Source of the DNA: Paeniglutamicibacter psychrophenolicus
GTDB taxonomy: Bacteria; Actinomycetota; Actinomycetes; Actinomycetales; Micrococcaceae
Length of the DNA: 64,000 nucleotides
Assembly: GCF_030812255.1 (NCBI RefSeq)
Contig: NZ_JAUSSH010000004.1
Span: 186,001-250,000 of the forward strand
Direction of reading: 5' to 3'
Numbering within the stretch: the stretch's first letter is position 1; every line of letters starts with the position of its first letter. The position numbers were made by a program, and so were the translations under genes. The notes beneath the pieces were generated by a model. The model was given only the letters and a program-made list of their open reading frames with translations. It ran no database searches and was not told the origin of the DNA. Positions 17,323-24,866 of the stretch are shown in pieces.

Positions 17323-18951
17323 GTGCGCAATCCACAACGCCTGACGACGCTGGCCATTCTTGCCTCCATTCTATTGGTCGGCACCGGTTGCGCGCCCGCA
17401 GCGCCCGGGTCCGGCAGGGAAGGGCCCGCCCAGCCCTCGCTGGCCCTGCTCACCGCGGCCCTTCCCGAGACGCTTAACCCGCTGGCCGGATTCGACAACA
17501 ATGGCACGGGCAAGATCAACGAATCCCTCTACACCCTCACCGGCTCCCCCGACCACTTGCCGCAAATCACGCCCCTGCTGGCAGCGGACGAACCAACCGT
17601 ATCCGCCGATGCGCGCACGTGGACGGTACCGCTGCGCCAGGATGCCCGGTTCAGCGACGGAACCACCTTTGATGCCGCGGATGTCGTGGCAAGCTACAAG
17701 GCCATCATGGATCCGGCGAGCGCCTCGCCGGTCCTCGGCACGCTCTCAAACGTCGTGGACGTCAAGGCCCTGGACCCACACACCGTCGAATTCACGCTGC
17801 GCGAATCCCAGGTCTCCTTCAAGACGGCCATGCTCATCGGCATTGCCCCGTCCGAAACCATCGAGCCCGGACAACGGGTCGAGGAATCGACCTTGAACCG
17901 CAAACCGGTGGGCACCGGACCCTACCTGGTGGATTCGATCGGCCCCTCGCGCCTGGTCCTGGTGGCCAACCCAGAATACCGCGACGGCGAGGTCGCGCTC
18001 AAGCGCGTCACCTACGAAGCGGCCCCCGATGACAACGCCCGGGCCCAGCGCATGCTGGCCGGAGAATTCGACGGCACCGTGCTGCCCCCGCGCCTGGCGG
18101 CAACCTTCGCGGCCAACCCCGCCTTCGAGCAGGTGACGGCCACCTCCGCGGATTGGCGCGGACTCTCCCTGCCGGCGGACAACCCGCTGACGTCCGACCC
18201 GAAGGTGCGCCTGGCCCTGAACCTTGGGGTGGACCGCCAGGGACTGGTCGACGGGGTCCTGGCCGGCACCGGGCGCCCGGCCCACACCTTTGTGCCGGCC
18301 GAGTACGGGGATGCCTTCGACCCCGCGGCCGTCTTTGCCCACGACCCGGCCCGCGCCGCCCAGCTGTTGGACGAGGCCGGCTGGGTTCTCGGAGACGACT
18401 CCATGCGCTCCAAGGACGGGGCCCCTGCCGCGTTCACGCTGATGTACAACCCCGGGGACCAGCTGCGCCGGGACTTGTCCCTGGCGTTCTCCGCCCAGAT
18501 GAAACAGCTGGGCATCGACGTGCCGGTCGAGGCGGCGACCTTCGAGATGGCCGAGCCGCGGGTGGGCACCGATGCCATCATGCTCGGTGGCGGCGACACC
18601 CCCTACGACGTGGACACCCAGCTGTACAAGATGCTGCACTCCTCCTACCCGGCCACCGGCGCCTACTACGACAACCCGAGCAGGTTCGCCGACCCGGCCA
18701 TGGACCGGGCCCTGGAAACCGGACGCACCACCCTGGACGAGGCCAAGCGGGCCGCGGCGTACCGCGAGGTGGCGCGCCTCTACGTCACCGAGCCCTCGAT
18801 GGTCCTGCTCGCTTTCATCGACCACACCTACATCCAGCGCACCTCCGTCTCCGAGGCCTGGACCGGCACCGGGACGCTGCTCGAACCCCACGACCACGGC
18901 ACCGCGTGGGGCCCGTGGGTCAAGATCGGCCAATGGGTCCCGAAGCAATGA
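17323..18951 (+). CDS. ABC importer substrate-binding lipoprotein (nickel/peptide type)
   Basis: Extracytoplasmic binding protein of the SBP_bac_5 family (DppA, OppA, NikA). The GTG start gives 542 residues with a lipoprotein signal ending in the lipobox LVGTGC, so it should be anchored to the outer face of the membrane. Family landmarks include the N-terminal LPETLNPLAGFDN region and DGTTFDAADVVASYKAIMDP. It is the first gene of a four-gene unit with all junctions overlapping. The ligand cannot be read from sequence. Oligopeptides are the default; nickel or a nickel-metallophore is suggested by the ArsR tail and the urease operon nearby. Confidence 0.88.
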   Translation: MRNPQRLTTLAILASILLVGTGCAPAAPGSGREGPAQPSLALLTAALPETLNPLAGFDNNGTGKINESLYTLTGSPDHLPQITPLLAADEPTVSADARTWTVPLRQDARFSDGTTFDAADVVASYKAIMDPASASPVLGTLSNVVDVKALDPHTVEFTLRESQVSFKTAMLIGIAPSETIEPGQRVEESTLNRKPVGTGPYLVDSIGPSRLVLVANPEYRDGEVALKRVTYEAAPDDNARAQRMLAGEFDGTVLPPRLAATFAANPAFEQVTATSADWRGLSLPADNPLTSDPKVRLALNLGVDRQGLVDGVLAGTGRPAHTFVPAEYGDAFDPAAVFAHDPARAAQLLDEAGWVLGDDSMRSKDGAPAAFTLMYNPGDQLRRDLSLAFSAQMKQLGIDVPVEAATFEMAEPRVGTDAIMLGGGDTPYDVDTQLYKMLHSSYPATGAYYDNPSRFADPAMDRALETGRTTLDEAKRAAAYREVARLYVTEPSMVLLAFIDHTYIQRTSVSEAWTGTGTLLEPHDHGTAWGPWVKIGQWVPKQ

Positions 18952-19961
18952 GCACGCACGTCCCGCCGGCGGGCACGCAACGGCGCCGTTCGAGTGCCGG
19001 CGAGGCCTTCTCCCTGCTCGGACGCCGGGCCCTGGTGGGGATCCCGGCCACGGCGGCGATCACCGCTGCGGTCTTCTGGCTCGCATCCCTGGCCCCCTTC
19101 AATCCCCTGGCCCTGTACATGGGCACGCAATATGAACACGCGACCCCGGGCCAGCGCGAAAAGCTGGCTGCCGAGCTGGGGCTCAACGACGCCTGGTACG
19201 CGATCTGGGGGCGCTGGGTCTCCGGCGCCCTGCGCGGGGACTGTGGAACCTCCCGGCTCTTTGGCCAGCCGATGGCCGACGTGGTTTCCGAACGCCTCCC
19301 CTACACCGCGTTGCTGGTGGGGCTCGGGCTCGTGGTTGCCATTGCGCTCTCGGTGCTGCTGGCGGTGGGTGCGGCCCGGCGCCCGGGCTCCCTTGTTGAC
19401 GCCGTGGCCCTGGGCCTGGTGCACATTGCCCAGGCGATCCCGCCCTTCGTCCTGGGCCTGGTGGCCATCGCCGTCTTTGCGATCGGCCTGGGCCTGCCGG
19501 CCGGTGGCGCCGCGTCGGGCGGGGCCGACCCCACGCCCGCGGGCCTCGCCCTGCACCTGGTCCTGCCCGTGGGCGTGCTGGCGGTGACCCTGCTGCCGTG
19601 GCTGGTGCTGAACCTGCGGGCCTCGGTGCTCGAGGCGCTGGAATCCGACGCGGTGCTGGCCGCGCGTGGCCGCGGGCTGGGCGAGTTCACGGTGCTGCGC
19701 ACCCATGTGCTTCCGGTGGCGTTGCTGCCGTTCATGACGGTGGTGGGTTCCAGGCTCGGCGAGCTGGTCACCGGGGCGCTGCTCATCGAGGCGGTGTTCT
19801 CCTGGCCCGGCCTGGCTTCGGCCACGGTGTCCTCGGCGACCGCCGGCGACTTCCCGTTGCTGGCCGCGGTGACCGCGCTGACCTGCGCGGCGGTCTTTGC
19901 CGGCTCCGCGTTGGCCGATGCCTGCTACCTGCTGCTTGATCCGCGGGTGGGCGATGTCTAG
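18948..19961 (+). CDS. ABC importer permease (DppB/NikB type)
   Basis: Membrane subunit of the peptide/nickel importer, 337 residues. A cytoplasmic Arg-rich start is followed by the first helix and a long periplasmic loop typical of DppB/NikB, then five more helices. The EAA loop that docks the ATPase reads VLAARGRGLGEFTVLRTHVL. The ATG overlaps the preceding stop (ATGA), so translation is coupled to the binding protein. Confidence 0.9.
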   Translation: MSTHVPPAGTQRRRSSAGEAFSLLGRRALVGIPATAAITAAVFWLASLAPFNPLALYMGTQYEHATPGQREKLAAELGLNDAWYAIWGRWVSGALRGDCGTSRLFGQPMADVVSERLPYTALLVGLGLVVAIALSVLLAVGAARRPGSLVDAVALGLVHIAQAIPPFVLGLVAIAVFAIGLGLPAGGAASGGADPTPAGLALHLVLPVGVLAVTLLPWLVLNLRASVLEALESDAVLAARGRGLGEFTVLRTHVLPVALLPFMTVVGSRLGELVTGALLIEAVFSWPGLASATVSSATAGDFPLLAAVTALTCAAVFAGSALADACYLLLDPRVGDV

Positions 19962-21600
19962 GCCCCGCCCGCTGCCCCTGGTGCTGCTGGGGCTTGCCCT
20001 CGCCTACGCCGTGCTGGTTCCGTGGCTGCAACCCCTGGATCCGCGCGCGGTGGACCTGTCCGCGGTGCTGCAAGCCCCTTCCGGGGAGCATTTCTTCGGC
20101 ACCGACCAGTTGGGCCGGGACGTGTGGATCCGGTCGGCCCAGGGCCTGCGCATGTCCCTGCTGCTGGCGCTGGGTGCCTCGGTGTTCTCCACGGTGCTCG
20201 GTGTGGGCGTGGGGCTGCTGGCCGCCTGGCGCGGGGGGATCGTCGACCGCATTGCCATGCGCCTGGTGGACACCACCAACGCCCTGCCGCACCTGTTGCT
20301 GGCGGTGGTCATCGTGGCCCTGTGGCGCGGGCAGTGGTGGGCGATCGTGCTGTCCATTGCCTTGACCCACTGGACGCAGGTGGCACGGATCGTGCGCTCG
20401 CGGTTGCTGGCCGAGCGCACGGCCGACTACGTGCAGCTGGCCCGGGCTTCCGGAGCCCCGGCGGCAGCGATCTGGTGCACCCACCTGGTTCCGGCTGTTG
20501 CGCCGCAGGCCGCCATCGCGCTGGTGCTGCAGCTGCCCCATGCCATCTGGCATGAAAGCTCGCTCTCCTTCCTGGGGGTCGGCTTGCCTCCCGAATCGGC
20601 ATCGCTGGGCCTGCTGCTGGAGGATGCCCGCGGCGGGCTGCTGGCCGGGGCCTGGTGGCTGCTGGTGTTCCCCGCCGGGCTGCTGGTACTGGTCAGCTGG
20701 TGCACCGCTTCGATCATCGACACCGCGGGGATGTCCAGGCGCCGCCGCCGACTGTCCCGGTTCCCCGGTCAAGTTCCCGGCACCGGCACGGCAGCATCCG
20801 CGGCCGCTGCAGCCACCCGCTCCGCCGCGGACCATGCCCCCGGCAGTCCGGCGATCCTGGTTTCCGGCCTGGACCTCCGGCTCCCCTCGACCACCGACCC
20901 GCGGGCAAGCACGTTGGTGCTCAAGGGAATCGACTACCGGGCCGAGGCCGGGCGCATCAATGTCATCCTGGGGGCCTCGGGGGCGGGCAAGTCCCTGCTG
21001 CTGCGGACCCTGGTGGGGCTGCTGCCCGCCGGTGCCCGTTTCACGGGAAACATCGCGCTCAACGGGCAGGCACTGGATGCGGCCGGGCTGGCCGCCGCGC
21101 GGGGCACCGACACGGTCCTGGTGCCGGGATCCTCCGGCACCGCGCTGAACCCCGTGCGCAGGGTTGCCGCGCAGATGCGGCAGACCCTCCGGGTCTCCGG
21201 GCGGCCCTGCTCCCGGGCCGAGGTCTTGGCGGCGCTCGGGGCCGCCGCCGTCGACGGCGCGCTGGCCGGGCGCCACCCCCACGAACTTTCCGGCGGGCAG
21301 GCCCAGCGCGTGGCCCTTGCGCTGGGCGTTGCCGTGGGCTCACGGATCCTGCTGGTGGACGAGCCCACCAGCGCATTGGATGTCGATACGGTTGGCCTCA
21401 TCGAAACGCTTCTGCGGGGCCGGGCAGCGGCGGGCACCACCGTCGTCATGGTCACCCACGACCTCGAGCTGGCCCGCCGCATCGCCGACCATGTGGCGGT
21501 CCTCCGGGACGGGCGGATCGTCGAATCCGGCACCGCCGCCGAGGTGCTGGCGAACCCGGCGCTTCCGGAGACCGGCGTGCTGCTGGGGGCGCCGGCATGA
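19954..21600 (+). CDS. Fused ABC permease and ATP-binding protein
   Basis: A single 548-residue chain joins a DppC/NikC-type permease to a DppD/NikD-type ATPase. Residues 1 to about 265 are the permease, with the family motif HFFGTDQLGRDVWIR-like region near 50 and EAA loop YVQLARASGAPAAAIW. An Arg-rich then Ala/Thr-rich linker (about 260-310) leads to the ATPase: Walker A GASGAGKS, signature LSGGQAQR, Walker B ILLVDEPTSALD and the switch His in VMVTHDLE. The frame is continuous with no stop or slip site. It overlaps the upstream permease by 8 bp and the next ATPase gene by 4. Such fusions occur in some actinobacteria; usual systems use two genes. Confidence 0.9.
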   Translation: MSRPRPLPLVLLGLALAYAVLVPWLQPLDPRAVDLSAVLQAPSGEHFFGTDQLGRDVWIRSAQGLRMSLLLALGASVFSTVLGVGVGLLAAWRGGIVDRIAMRLVDTTNALPHLLLAVVIVALWRGQWWAIVLSIALTHWTQVARIVRSRLLAERTADYVQLARASGAPAAAIWCTHLVPAVAPQAAIALVLQLPHAIWHESSLSFLGVGLPPESASLGLLLEDARGGLLAGAWWLLVFPAGLLVLVSWCTASIIDTAGMSRRRRRLSRFPGQVPGTGTAASAAAAATRSAADHAPGSPAILVSGLDLRLPSTTDPRASTLVLKGIDYRAEAGRINVILGASGAGKSLLLRTLVGLLPAGARFTGNIALNGQALDAAGLAAARGTDTVLVPGSSGTALNPVRRVAAQMRQTLRVSGRPCSRAEVLAALGAAAVDGALAGRHPHELSGGQAQRVALALGVAVGSRILLVDEPTSALDVDTVGLIETLLRGRAAAGTTVVMVTHDLELARRIADHVAVLRDGRIVESGTAAEVLANPALPETGVLLGAPA

Positions 21601-22301
21601 GCCTGGAACTGAGGGATGTCTCCTACACGCACCCCGGGACCGACCCGGCTGCGGGGAGGCTGCTTGACGGTCTAGACCTGTCCGTGGGCGCGGGGGAAGT
21701 CACGGGGCTCTGCGCCCCGTCGGGTGCCGGCAAATCGACGCTGCTGCGCATTGCCGCCTTGATGGTGCCCGCGGATGCGGGGACCGTGCGCATCAACGGG
21801 CAGGAATTCTCCCGCGGCACCCCGGTGCCGCGGGAGGTGCGCCGATCCGTGGGAGTGGTGCTGCAGTCACCGCGCGCAGCGGCCGATCCGCGGATGCGCC
21901 TGGATGCCCTGGTCTGCGCCCCGCTGGCCTTTCGCGAAGGTGCATGGCGTCCGCGGCCGCGGCGCCACTCCGGACGCCTGGCCGAATTGGCCGAACTGGC
22001 GCAGCTGGATCCGGAGCTCCTACACCGCTACCCGCACCAGGTCTCGGACGGGCAGCTCCAGCGGGCCATGGTGGCCCGTGCCCTGGCGCTGGACCCGGAC
22101 GTGCTGATCTGCGACGAACCCACGGCCCAGCTCGATTCCGAAAACACCGCTGCCGTCCTGGGGATGCTGGCGAACCGTGCCGCAGCGGGGGCCGCTGTCC
22201 TCATCGCCTCGCACGATACCGCCGCGCTGTCGGGGGTCGCCGACAGGATGCTGGACCTGGCGGGGATCAACCGGGCAGGAGATCGTGCCGGGCACGCCTA
22301 A
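21597..22301 (+). CDS. ABC importer ATP-binding protein (DppF/NikE type)
   Basis: Second ATPase of the importer, 234 residues, shorter than typical DppF because it lacks the C-terminal oligopeptide-ABC extension. Walker A is CAPSGAGKST, Walker B VLICDEPTAQLD and the switch His lies in LIASHDTAA. The signature motif reads VSDGQLQR instead of LSGGQ, a departure in the residue that contacts the partner's ATP. Start overlaps the preceding stop (ATGA). Last gene of the four-gene unit; it converges on the HTH-membrane protein 45 bp away. Confidence 0.88.
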   Translation: MSLELRDVSYTHPGTDPAAGRLLDGLDLSVGAGEVTGLCAPSGAGKSTLLRIAALMVPADAGTVRINGQEFSRGTPVPREVRRSVGVVLQSPRAAADPRMRLDALVCAPLAFREGAWRPRPRRHSGRLAELAELAQLDPELLHRYPHQVSDGQLQRAMVARALALDPDVLICDEPTAQLDSENTAAVLGMLANRAAAGAAVLIASHDTAALSGVADRMLDLAGINRAGDRAGHA

Positions 22302-22346
22302 AACCCGCATGCCGCCAGGTGGACAGGTCCCGGACGGGGAGACGGC

Positions 22347-23447
22347 TCACGGCGAATCGGGGACCTGTTTCGAGAAGCCCCGCCGGGGCCCGGACCCCGA
22401 CCCTTGGACCGACAGGTTGGCGGGCCCTGGACGGGAACCGTTCCCGGCACCGCGGACGGGGTTGCCGACCGCTTTCAAGTGGAGCATCACGTCGGCGCTC
22501 AGGGTGTCGTAGAACGGAACCTCGATCCATCGCCGCACGGCACCCAGCGCGCCAAGGACAATGAAGCCGGTCAGTAGTTTGTCGGCCAACGAATGAACCA
22601 CATTCGATCCCAGGACGGCCACGGACAGGGGATTGCCCATCGCCGCGAGGTTCCGGGTCGTGTTCTCCGAGGCGTGGCCGGTTCCGCCGTTGAACAGCAG
22701 GACCAGCAACGTGGTTGCGACCACCGAACAGCTGAGGGCGACCAGGACATTGAGCAACAGGTATCTGGGGAAGGTTTGGCACAGCCGGAGGCTGCGTGCC
22801 CCGTACCCCCACACCAGGGCGCCGACGACGTTGACCAGCGCGAAGGCAATCGATGAAGAGTCGGTGATGCCCAGGCCAATGGCGTTCGTTGACAACCCCA
22901 CGGCCACGCCCGCCCAGGGGCCAAGCGCGATTGCGGCTATCGCCGTGCCCACCATGTCGAAGTAGAGCGGCAGCCCCAACCTGGCCACGAGGGTGAACCC
23001 CAAGACGTTCAAAACGATACATGCCAAAATCAGCATGAGTTTTCGGCCATTGGCCGGAGCCGCCGTTTCGGCCACCTCGGGCAGCGGGTCCGACGGGGCC
23101 GGTTCGGGCATGACGGCCGGCGCCGGCAGCGGATTCCTTCTGGCCAGAAGGCACCGCTCCTCCCATTGTGCGGCCTCGATTTCGGAGGCCCCAAGGACGC
23201 GGGAAATTTCGCCGACGAGATGGGGGTTGACCCGCGTGCGTCCGGTCCGGAAGGCGTCGTAGACGGTGGTGCGGGCCGGTCGGGCACTGCCGGCGTCCAC
23301 GCCGTTGCGTTCCCGGTGGGCGGCAATGCGCCGAACGATCTCGGCGTAGGCTACGTCGCCGGCGGCGAAGCGCAATCGCTGCAGGTCCTGCGCAATTTCG
23401 TCATACGAGCCCGCAGGGGCTTCCACTGCACGGGGCTGGTCGGTCAT
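22347..23447 (-). CDS. HTH domain fused to an ECF S-component-like membrane domain
   Basis: A 366-residue protein with two parts. Residues about 15-100 form a helix-turn-helix of the XRE-like type found at the N-terminus of actinobacterial signalling proteins, with TTVYDAFRTGRTRVNPHLV as recognition region. After a Pro/Ala linker come about six hydrophobic helices (150-320) beginning LPLYFDMVGTAIAAIALGPW, resembling the substrate-binding S subunits of energy-coupling-factor vitamin and metal transporters. No ECF ATPase or T subunit is nearby. The architecture suggests a membrane-tethered one-component regulator, or a transporter subunit with DNA-binding autoregulation. Start ATG at 23447 follows GAGG by 5 nt. 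Ligand unknown; neighbours are a possible nickel importer and urease. Confidence 0.75.
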   Translation of the reverse strand: MTDQPRAVEAPAGSYDEIAQDLQRLRFAAGDVAYAEIVRRIAAHRERNGVDAGSARPARTTVYDAFRTGRTRVNPHLVGEISRVLGASEIEAAQWEERCLLARRNPLPAPAVMPEPAPSDPLPEVAETAAPANGRKLMLILACIVLNVLGFTLVARLGLPLYFDMVGTAIAAIALGPWAGVAVGLSTNAIGLGITDSSSIAFALVNVVGALVWGYGARSLRLCQTFPRYLLLNVLVALSCSVVATTLLVLLFNGGTGHASENTTRNLAAMGNPLSVAVLGSNVVHSLADKLLTGFIVLGALGAVRRWIEVPFYDTLSADVMLHLKAVGNPVRGAGNGSRPGPANLSVQGSGSGPRRGFSKQVPDSP

Positions 23448-23969
23448 TCGGTCCTCTTTGGCAACGGTCGCGCGATTCCCGCGCAATGCATTACCTGCAA
23501 TCTTAGGCATCCGGCCGCCCCGCTAGGAACGTTGTGACGATCCGTTCGGAAAATTCGGCCTTGTTCGGGGTTGTTCGAGAATCGGCAGTTTGGGCATTTT
23601 CGCTTGCCGCGTCAGCTATCTTGGGAGTTGGGTGGCGGCCAGCGATCGAAAACCAGGCGTCTCGATCTTGGGTTCTGGCCACCGAGAGCCTCGGCCCGCG
23701 ACACCATGGGATGTCCAGGCCCTGGGTATATTACTCAATTGGAATTTGATACCAGGGCGCTGCCTGGCATCCGGAAGCGGGAACCACGGCGGTCTCAGGA
23801 CGATCGCCCGTGTACTCGGCACGACCAAACTTGGGGGCGTGCCGGGTACAGGGGCCGGTCGGCAAGCCCGAACCTTGCGCGCGGCGGGAGAACACGAAGC
23901 TGGCTCCCTGCGCAAGCTCCCCTCGGTCCGGGTGCCGCGCCGCCGGCATTGGCGTGTGGGGCGCACGCC
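23448..23969. other. Intergenic region between ureD and the HTH-membrane gene
   Basis: Both flanking genes are on the minus strand. No credible gene is visible. The stretch contains an AT-rich patch near 23727-23755 that includes TATATT and could hold a promoter, and four phased TTCG repeats at 23545-23578. The 522 bp is long for this genome and could hide a leader or a small RNA, but nothing known is recognised. Confidence 0.45.
23545..23578. repeat. Four TTCGG/TTCGA repeats phased at one helical turn
   Basis: TTCGG begins at 23545, 23554 and 23564, and TTCGA at 23574, so spacing is 9-10-10 bp. The array lies about 100 bp upstream of the HTH-membrane gene start, where an autoregulatory operator would be expected. 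Confidence 0.5.
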
Positions 23970-24866
23970 CTAGTACTTTCGCAGGTTCAGCGGCTTTTGG
24001 CCCCTCAGGTGGAGGCGAAGCTCGTCGACCACGGCCATCAGGACCGCGTTGATGGCCTCGGTGGAGTTCGACAGTGCCCGCACCGCGACGCCCGGGCCCG
24101 GCACCTGGCTGATGCCCAGGTGCACCGGCGTGCGCTGTGCTTCCCCGATGCGGTAAGCCAGCTCGCGGATGCGTTCGACATCCGACGCCCCGATCTTCGC
24201 ATCGATGGCCAGCAGCATGCCCACGTGCGTGAAGTCCTGCAGGAAAAGCAGTGAGTCCAGCGAGTCCTCCCCCGGCCGCACCAGCAGGTTGTCCAGCACC
24301 GCGAGCTTGCCTCCCACGCTGACCTCGGTGCGCAGGCGCACCTCGTCGTAGCGGAAGGGCTTCCCGTCCGGGCTCCACCCTGGGGTGAGCACCTCGCAGA
24401 ACAGCAGGCTGGAGTCCTGGTGCATGTCCACCCGCGTGTACTGCCGGTAGCTGGCTCCGCGGTAGGCAATGAGCTGGTCGGGCACGTATTCGAGCACCGC
24501 GCCCGGCCCCAGGCGCACCACCATGTCCTGGCGGGCAAAGGTCCCCGGGGTCTTGTAGACCTTGGTCGCCGACTGGGTGGTCAGCAGCAGCGAGGTGTCC
24601 TCGTCCACCGAGACCTCGATGCCGTAGTTGTCCCCGCCCAGGTACCCGCCCCCGGGGTTCACGATGGTGTAGCAGACCTGGGCGGTGTCATCGAGGTAGT
24701 GCGGGCGCAGGATCCGCAGCGCGCCCTGGTGGTACTGCCGCGTGGCAATGGCCTTGCCGGCGCGCGTGCCCACCTGCAGGCGCAGCTCGCCGACAATCTT
24801 GGTTCCTTCAAAGGGCGAGGGGCCCAGCTCCCGGATCGCCGGCTGTTCGGCCATTTTCGGTGCCAT
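23970..24866 (-). CDS. ureD: Urease accessory protein UreD
   Basis: Scaffold protein that binds apo-urease and forms the UreDFG complex delivering nickel to the active site. The 298-residue protein shows the family patterns GELRLQVGTRAGKAIATRQYHQGALRILR-like opening region, GGGYLGGDNYGIEVSVDE, TTQSATKVYKTPG and CEVLTPGW. Start ATG at 24866 lies 5 nt after the ureG stop with AGGG just upstream; a second ATG four codons later lacks a ribosome site. Last gene of the urease operon. Confidence 0.94.
   Translation of the reverse strand: MAPKMAEQPAIRELGPSPFEGTKIVGELRLQVGTRAGKAIATRQYHQGALRILRPHYLDDTAQVCYTIVNPGGGYLGGDNYGIEVSVDEDTSLLLTTQSATKVYKTPGTFARQDMVVRLGPGAVLEYVPDQLIAYRGASYRQYTRVDMHQDSSLLFCEVLTPGWSPDGKPFRYDEVRLRTEVSVGGKLAVLDNLLVRPGEDSLDSLLFLQDFTHVGMLLAIDAKIGASDVERIRELAYRIGEAQRTPVHLGISQVPGPGVAVRALSNSTEAINAVLMAVVDELRLHLRGQKPLNLRKY

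Follow-up and report, generated by a model that had tools for sequence, protein, structure and literature searches.

The window (the whole 64-kb stretch of DNA that was analysed, from Paeniglutamicibacter psychrophenolicus) carries on its minus strand a gene whose product joins an N-terminal helix-turn-helix (HTH) domain to a C-terminal domain related to the S components of ECF importers. The gene, its domains and an adjoining array of direct repeats are positioned as follows.

22347–23447, minus strand: HTH-S fusion gene, 366 amino acids; an open frame, kept as a fusion, with low dN/dS in both domains
23133–23414, minus strand: HTH domain (approximately residues 12–105), of XRE/Cro type with a longer loop preceding the recognition helix
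23046–23132, minus strand: linker (approximately residues 106–134), proline/alanine-rich and variable among relatives
22512–23045, minus strand: S-component domain (approximately residues 135–312), identified through NF045596, FolT structures and hhalign comparison with standalone S proteins
23541–23580, minus strand: candidate operator of four direct-repeat units (TCTCGAACAA, CCCCGAACAA, GGCCGAATTT and TCCGAACGGA) at steps of 10, 10 and 9 bp, conserved in 12 of 12 loci of family f1

The tail beyond residue 312 is short and variable. The start codon is probably the one at 23447 rather than an in-frame ATG at 23510, since the latter is absent in some relatives. Comparison of the gene with four relatives from its genus gave dN/dS ratios of 0.11–0.20 for the HTH domain, 0.11–0.27 for the S domain, 0.37–1.05 for the linker and 0.48–0.74 for the tail; purifying selection acts on both the HTH and the S domain.

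Within the genus, a urease operon precedes the gene and an ABC importer operon, convergent with it, follows. The importer operon (17323–22301, plus strand) is binding-protein-dependent, is kept beside urease in the genus and, as read from sequence, could serve for nickel or peptides. This urease/importer neighbourhood is common to the window's own genus only. The fusions of family f33, genus g159 and genome G265 have unrelated neighbours, most of which vary from one genome to the next, with one neighbourhood shared by three f33 loci (L035, L107 and L108); gene calls in this comparison came from a codon-usage script (which gave no call for the fusion at L120 and L121) and neighbour names were read by eye. 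The HTH-S gene behaves as a solitary unit.

Domain homology and descent of the fusion

The original prediction held that a single chain combines an XRE-like HTH with a genuine relative of S components, and this architecture was borne out by profile, structure-model and homology matches. A Pfam search of the window's protein returned no HTH match for its N-terminal part, and the same kind of search matched HTH_31 in 10 of 21 family members. An AlphaFold2 model of the window's protein, built from six close sequences, was confident over approximately residues 11–104 (with 10-residue block confidences of 73–89), and the modelled domain aligned with the Cro/C1-type chains C.Esp1396I, HipB, SinR and ClgR at Z-scores of approximately 6–7, where a value below 8 could by itself reflect a common arrangement. 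The model, together with the HTH_31 matches in relatives, indicates that the N-terminal region is an HTH fold of the Cro/C1 kind, as had been predicted.

The proposed kinship of the C-terminal domain with S components was likewise upheld. Residues 140–301 match NF045596, the NCBIfam model for the CD3073-family ECF S component, with an E-value of 3.9e-21 and 75.5 bits; because this score lies below the curated cut-off of 180, the fused domain is judged not to be a CD3073 equivalog. All 21 fusion family members match the same model (E ≤0.1). The NCBIfam folate-family model also matches the domain, more weakly, and Pfam ECF_trnsprt does so under its cut-off (E 0.0023). A profile built from the 21 fusions finds the FolT structures 5d0y (E 6e-4) and 5d3m (E 6e-3), and profile-profile comparison by hhalign with 12 standalone S proteins gave a probability of 99.85% (E 1.3e-30). 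The membrane half of the AlphaFold2 model is of low confidence (<50), and its best PDB matches, which are weak alone, are to the S component RibU (3p5n and 5kc0; Foldseek E 0.6–0.8). These matches place the domain among S-component homologs, on the CD3073/FolT side.

The search for further HTH-S fusions that had been suggested yielded 44 distinct fused sequences, collected together with 24 rows of standalone S proteins and 16 rows of HTH-only proteins (two of the latter, L067 and L083, being fragments of fusions). Named relatives of the fusion comprise two Arthrobacter sp. strains, two Paeniglutamicibacter species and one Micrococcaceae MAG. Among 296 genomes sampled evenly across the class there were 22 matches, which sorted by hand into eight with both halves (the window's own genome, six from family f33 and one from f4), ten with the HTH only and four with the S domain only. 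The fusion query matched 44 of 245 genomes in f33 and 66 of 197 in the window's own family, most of the latter through the S half alone; among the matches listed in that own-family search, fusions were found in 9 of 12 genomes of the same genus, and three genomes of genus g159 carry fusions at 54–56% identity. The fusion is kept in the window's genus, in g159, in family f33 and in one genome of a third family. Across a sample of 396 genomes of the phylum, with at most six candidates scored per genome and misses therefore likely, the full fusion was recovered at E 1e-20 in the window's own genome only, and three other genomes showed the S part alone.

Carriage by phages or plasmids was considered and set aside: nowhere did a match cover most of the protein, matches being to the S domain only, and viral contigs gave none. 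A standalone S fragment from the window's own genome, with its reading frame assumed, gave no tblastn match to plasmids.

In a tree of 69 S domains, all fused domains fall on one side of a branch with 100/100 support and form a single clade apart from the standalone S proteins; two long branches (L012 and L068) make the inner order of the tree unsure. One sequence within the fused clade, L083, was labelled as standalone but comes from a fusion, its HTH being encoded just upstream in another frame. This locus (L083/L122; genome G597, genus g143), with HTH and S domain in different frames, represents a frameshifted fusion or two overlapping genes.

ECF modules and the S-type pocket

The predicted lack of a nearby ECF module held: no EcfT is encoded on the window's contig (C4), and the four EcfT genes of the genome lie on C3, C5, C7 and C12. 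No T and A genes of an ECF module are encoded with the window's fusion, although the protein might dock on a distant module. As one rival reading, the fusion could still be an importer subunit that borrows the T component and ATPase of another ECF system, with its HTH regulating its own expression. Such a role would draw on the presence of at least one EcfT gene elsewhere in all 42 fusion genomes examined, on a complete related ECF importer on C7 of the window's own genome, and on the fact that some S components are said by Partipilo and Slotboom to transport alone as well. Against it, no ECF gene adjoins the window's fusion; the EcfT gene nearest to a fusion lies at 5–6 kb in two genomes (G386 and G473); in the other 40 of the 42 it is on a different contig or more than 30 kb away.

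Each of the 11 f1 genomes examined carries one standalone S protein along with the fusion. All 30 f33 fusion genomes examined lack a standalone CD3073-like S protein besides their fusions, of which three genomes carry two; this speaks for the receptor reading. The importer on C7 of the window's genome (L042), read from sequence, comprises S, T and a double ATPase and lies next to genes for an aldo-keto reductase and a nucleoside hydrolase; its S protein has two additional N-terminal hydrophobic stretches in place of the fusion's HTH.

Standalone relatives adjoin T and A genes at L042, at L043 and L045 (genus g2) and at L044 and L046 (family f23), as read from sequence; annotated records of Enterococcus raffinosus and Salmonella show the same. 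A nucleoside hydrolase gene lies beside the standalone S gene in Enterococcus and Lacticaseibacillus (annotated) and at L042, L043 and L045 (read from sequence), and in Haladaptatus a nucleoside 2-deoxyribosyltransferase gene is found two genes away; the Salmonella S-component operon has no gene of the nucleoside hydrolase type. Because nucleoside-processing genes adjoin the standalone relatives, our best guess is that the ancestral ligand of this S family was a nucleoside or nucleobase. Searches of the open-licence literature found no paper on CD3073 and nothing decisive on nucleoside ECF transporters.

Comparison of the 44 fusions with the 24 standalone rows identified residues common to both (N147, D164, G167, T168, G176, F202, D289 and K290). 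Retention of the core S residues among them (D164, G167, T168, D289 and K290) again favours a continued importer role. Set against this are M165, W178 and W213, which are invariant in all 44 fusions, are rare or absent in the standalone rows and so separate every fusion from the importer-linked S proteins; N282 is present in 43 of 44 fusions. The conservation is pocket-like. Given the shared residues and those typical of the fusions (M165, W178, W213 and N282), our reading is that the fusions have retained the S-type pocket and adapted it to a single class of ligands, one that departs in its details from what the standalone relatives would bind.

Receptors of the S fold carry large residues where S components have the EcfT-docking AXXXA motif (Partipilo and Slotboom, PMC11109136). 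Alignment to FolT placed the two helix-1 positions at 141 and 145, which in the window's protein are Leu141 and Val145, large residues that count against docking as an importer subunit. Both positions are large in 13 of 44 fusions versus none of 24 standalone proteins, and the motif itself does not separate the two groups, since five of the 44 fusions carry it and so does one of the 24 standalone proteins. Since the standalone proteins themselves carry proline at 141 in 22 of 24 cases, we take the comparison as a lean towards a receptor role and not as a proof. Weighing these points, we regard continued service as an importer subunit as improbable.

The repeat array and its link to the HTH

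Inspection of the DNA upstream of 23447, where a target site had been proposed, revealed the candidate operator at 23541–23580. Tandem direct repeats with the consensus TCCGAACAAN and a period of 10 bp lie beside fusion genes. The word CCGAACAA is common to the upstream regions of 12 of 12 f1 fusions (the maximum among shuffles being 5 of 12), has related words in f33, and forms part of head-to-tail YYCGRACRNN copies at a step of 10, or sometimes 11, bp. A motif-free lag test of 6-mer repeats in the upstream regions of f33 peaked at lags of 10 and 11, with 38 and 27 per 10,000, where shuffles gave 7–10 and other lags at most 17. At a score threshold of 28.5, 29 of 44 loci have an array no more than 330 bp upstream, and shuffled sequence gave none; in the remaining loci the array lies within 80 bp past the stop codon (6 of 44) or inside the gene (1 of 44), or there is none within 1.4 kb (8 of 44). 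The motif weights were fixed after viewing f1 and part of f33, and therefore the lag test and a held-out set count most. Among seven held-out fusions, three pass at 0 of 200 shuffles, one passes at 0.03 with the variant unit CCTGGACAA, and three show nothing; L190 (no match), L198 (membrane part only) and L199 (a repeat of L071) were left out. When 190 gene upstream regions from 14 f33 loci were scored, 25 reached the threshold, mostly those of fusions or of genes sharing their intergenic region, the rest coming from two other intergenic regions (L104 and L110).

Two other kinds of element were sought near the gene. An inverted-repeat operator was rejected, exact 5-base dyads upstream of the gene being not above shuffles in f33; a GCGCG dyad is present in 5 of 12 f1 upstream regions, above shuffles. 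A scan of 22200–24000 for sigma-70 promoters and terminators gave nothing beyond chance. The second fusion of G306 (L191) has an upstream array of three CCTGGACAA units at a 10-bp step, which perhaps reflects a shifted DNA specificity.

The spacing between the array and a putative promoter element was measured in 19 tails, with eight of the genus type and L079 left out and with some loci close relatives of one another. The sequence TAnnnT, the common core of −10 elements in actinobacteria, begins precisely 25 bp past the second unit in 7 of the 19, and none of 2000 shuffles placed seven at one distance. Further distances after the second unit were 14, 16–17, 27, 30, 34–37 and 46 bp, and most distances in these tails, which come from genomes other than those of the window's genus type, lie approximately one helical turn apart. 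Such spacing suggests a helical phasing of the array to TAnnnT of the sort that a class I or class II activator would need. In the window's own genus there is no clear TAnnnT at a phased distance, and the activator reading is therefore left weaker for the window's gene.

Fusions without an upstream array often have one within 80 bp past the stop codon, with no TAnnnT nearby. The arrays after the stop are those of L061, L069, L070, L009, L062 and L011; at L008 the array is inside the gene, at L195 there are arrays on both sides, and at L208 a downstream array lies between convergent genes. Such variation in place and orientation (upstream in either orientation, up to 80 bp past the stop, and once between convergent genes) is what one might expect if the array were the point at which the protein anchors its own gene region to the membrane, with transcription control secondary or absent, and the profile of 21 fusions does weakly match the HTH region of KorB (E 0.04). 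Most arrays, however, lie upstream, largely share one orientation and are phased to TAnnnT, features of which an anchor would have no need, and we regard anchoring as very improbable.

The same type of HTH also heads large soluble proteins whose C-terminal parts are unrelated to the S domain and belong to what we take to be STAND or NB-ARC/TPR-like families. The HTHs of these HTH-only rows are 31–55% identical to that of the fusion. An array is found upstream of 5 of 14 such genes, each beyond every shuffle (two being weak, with scores near 27, and some of the genes being related), and of 2 of 4 further HTH-only genes, again each beyond every shuffle. Because the C-terminal halves of these STAND-type proteins are unrelated to the S domain, the array follows the HTH, which is the natural common cause of the array across different partners. 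The lack of an array at 9 of the first 14 HTH-only genes and at 2 of the 4 further ones counts against the regulator proposed below.

These observations bear also on the idea that another regulator of the cell binds the array, and that the HTH, though there, fails to recognise the repeats. The eight fusions without an array within 1.4 kb would fit that idea, as would genomes such as G409 that carry further arrays away from the fusion. It sits poorly with an array that accompanies this type of HTH even where the C-terminal partners are unrelated, and with the genomic distribution of the array: the strict pattern (CGAACANNNNCGAACA) has one zero-mismatch match in the window's own genome, at the HTH-S gene, and in 36 f33 genomes 8 of 19 strict matches lie beside the fusion gene. 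We therefore consider binding by another regulator unlikely.

Within the 64-kb window, the array pattern at up to two mismatches gave four matches, against a shuffle mean of 9.8, and the sole exact one lies upstream of the HTH-S gene. That the urease and importer operons nearby are targets, as had been proposed, was not supported: the window holds no exact array elsewhere and the neighbourhood is not kept beyond the genus. A looser pattern has two matches in the window's own genome, the second inside a gene, and gave 70 matches in 24 genomes against 5 for a reversed control. The fusion's own gene is the sole target found repeatedly for the array.

Additional near-consensus arrays in intergenic DNA of G409 (L154–L158), G447 (L168) and G458 (L161) form a possible regulon; by gene names read from sequence, examples are those next to a MutT-mshB pair in two of the genomes, G409 and G447, and one in G458 that separates disA from radA. 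G409, with eight looser-pattern matches (two overlapping at the fusion and the others intergenic), may have a regulon. For f33 as a whole, the extra arrays in G409, G447, G458 and others are too few for such a claim.

Proposed function and comparison with known systems

The architecture, homology, selection, single clade, array, TAnnnT spacing in other genomes and link between array and HTH were computed. The explanation that best accounts for them, to which we assign a probability of roughly two in three, is that the HTH-S protein is a membrane-bound one-component regulator of S-component descent, with a direct-repeat array as its candidate operator and its own promoter probably activated. 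From the same data we infer ligand binding, DNA binding, the sign of regulation and the membrane topology, as follows. The S domain, descended from an ECF-importer family whose standalone members probably serve for nucleosides or related compounds, would sit in the membrane and bind a small molecule from outside; lacking an ECF module of its own, the fusion would not import. Through the linker, ligand binding would alter where the cytoplasmic N-terminal HTH sits or how it assembles. The HTH would bind the head-to-tail TCCGAACAAN repeats adjoining its own gene, one per helical turn, and the protein would probably activate its own promoter. The loci without an array within 1.4 kb (8 of 44) and the three of seven held-out fusions without one count against this explanation, as do the arrays that lie past the stop codon (6 of 44, with one downstream array between convergent genes) or inside the gene (1 of 44), the lack of a clear phased TAnnnT in the window's genus, the late choice of motif weights and the EcfT gene found elsewhere in all 42 fusion genomes examined. 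The original notion of a one-component regulator is thus sustained as regards the single chain, the lack of an ECF module nearby, the conserved fusion and a candidate operator; ligand sensing through the S pocket is kept as a proposal, and the urease and importer operons are not supported as targets.

A more specific version, which we put forward tentatively and at well below even odds, is that an importer S component was turned in one step into a DNA-binding receptor, which would read an extracellular micronutrient, pass the start of the toppling motion to the HTH, assemble along the 10-bp repeats and activate its own gene from the membrane. The micronutrient might be nucleoside-like, or new, given the fusion's own invariant residues; the array's freedom to stand before or after the gene would be explained by the locus being captured at the membrane, the site of the protein's synthesis.

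If the proposed regulator is correct, an outside chemical signal would probably be turned directly into control of a gene. The candidate operator makes it testable whether an S-type pocket drives signalling without an ECF module, and in the window's genus the fusion and a complete ECF importer co-occur in one genome. The HTH-S protein also offers a scaffold for micronutrient biosensors.

The window's protein has DNA-binding and membrane domains in one chain, the arrangement that defines transmembrane transcription regulators. BcrR, for example, has an XRE-type HTH and four helices. Transmembrane transcription regulators of this kind are a known class, and BcrR-type proteins resemble the fusion in combining a DNA-binding domain with membrane helices in a one-component system (PMC10269533). 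Searches of the open-licence literature found no such regulator with an S-component domain and no HTH-S fusion, and the tandem direct-repeat array beside the HTH-S gene is new here. The STAND-type actinobacterial regulators share the HTH module and, in several cases, the upstream array; their C-terminal part, judged by eye from its sequence, is large and soluble, unlike the fusion's membrane S domain.

The CD3073-family ECF S components (NF045596) have a homologous membrane domain and share invariant residues with the fusion. They differ in being standalone, beside T and A genes and without an HTH, and at residues 165, 178, 213 and 282.

A further parallel is with 5TMR (LytS-YhcK type) receptor kinases such as BtsS and YpdA, which use an S-fold membrane domain as receptor; S components and 5TMR receptor kinases are described as sharing a fold (Partipilo and Slotboom, PMC11109136). 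The 5TMR Pfam model matches 16 of 21 fusions (best E 4.9e-7) and the window's protein at E 0.18. The 5TMR receptors have an extra helix, H0, and C-terminal signalling domains and need a response regulator (PMC11109136), whereas the fusion has an N-terminal DNA-binding HTH and an S domain close in sequence to importer S components; the window's protein has neither an N-terminal H0 nor a C-terminal kinase or other signalling domain. Partners named for 5TMR domains in that paper are kinase, PAS, GGDEF, EAL, chemotaxis, phosphatase and NRAMP domains, and its main text makes no mention of helix-turn-helix, HTH, one-component, transcription or DNA-binding (PMC11109136). The fold link between S-type receptors and importers dates from 2024, and the receptors' outputs there are kinases and other domains (PMC11109136); in the fusion family, if our reading is correct, the kinship of receptor and importer would show in the sequence itself and DNA would be the receptor's direct target.
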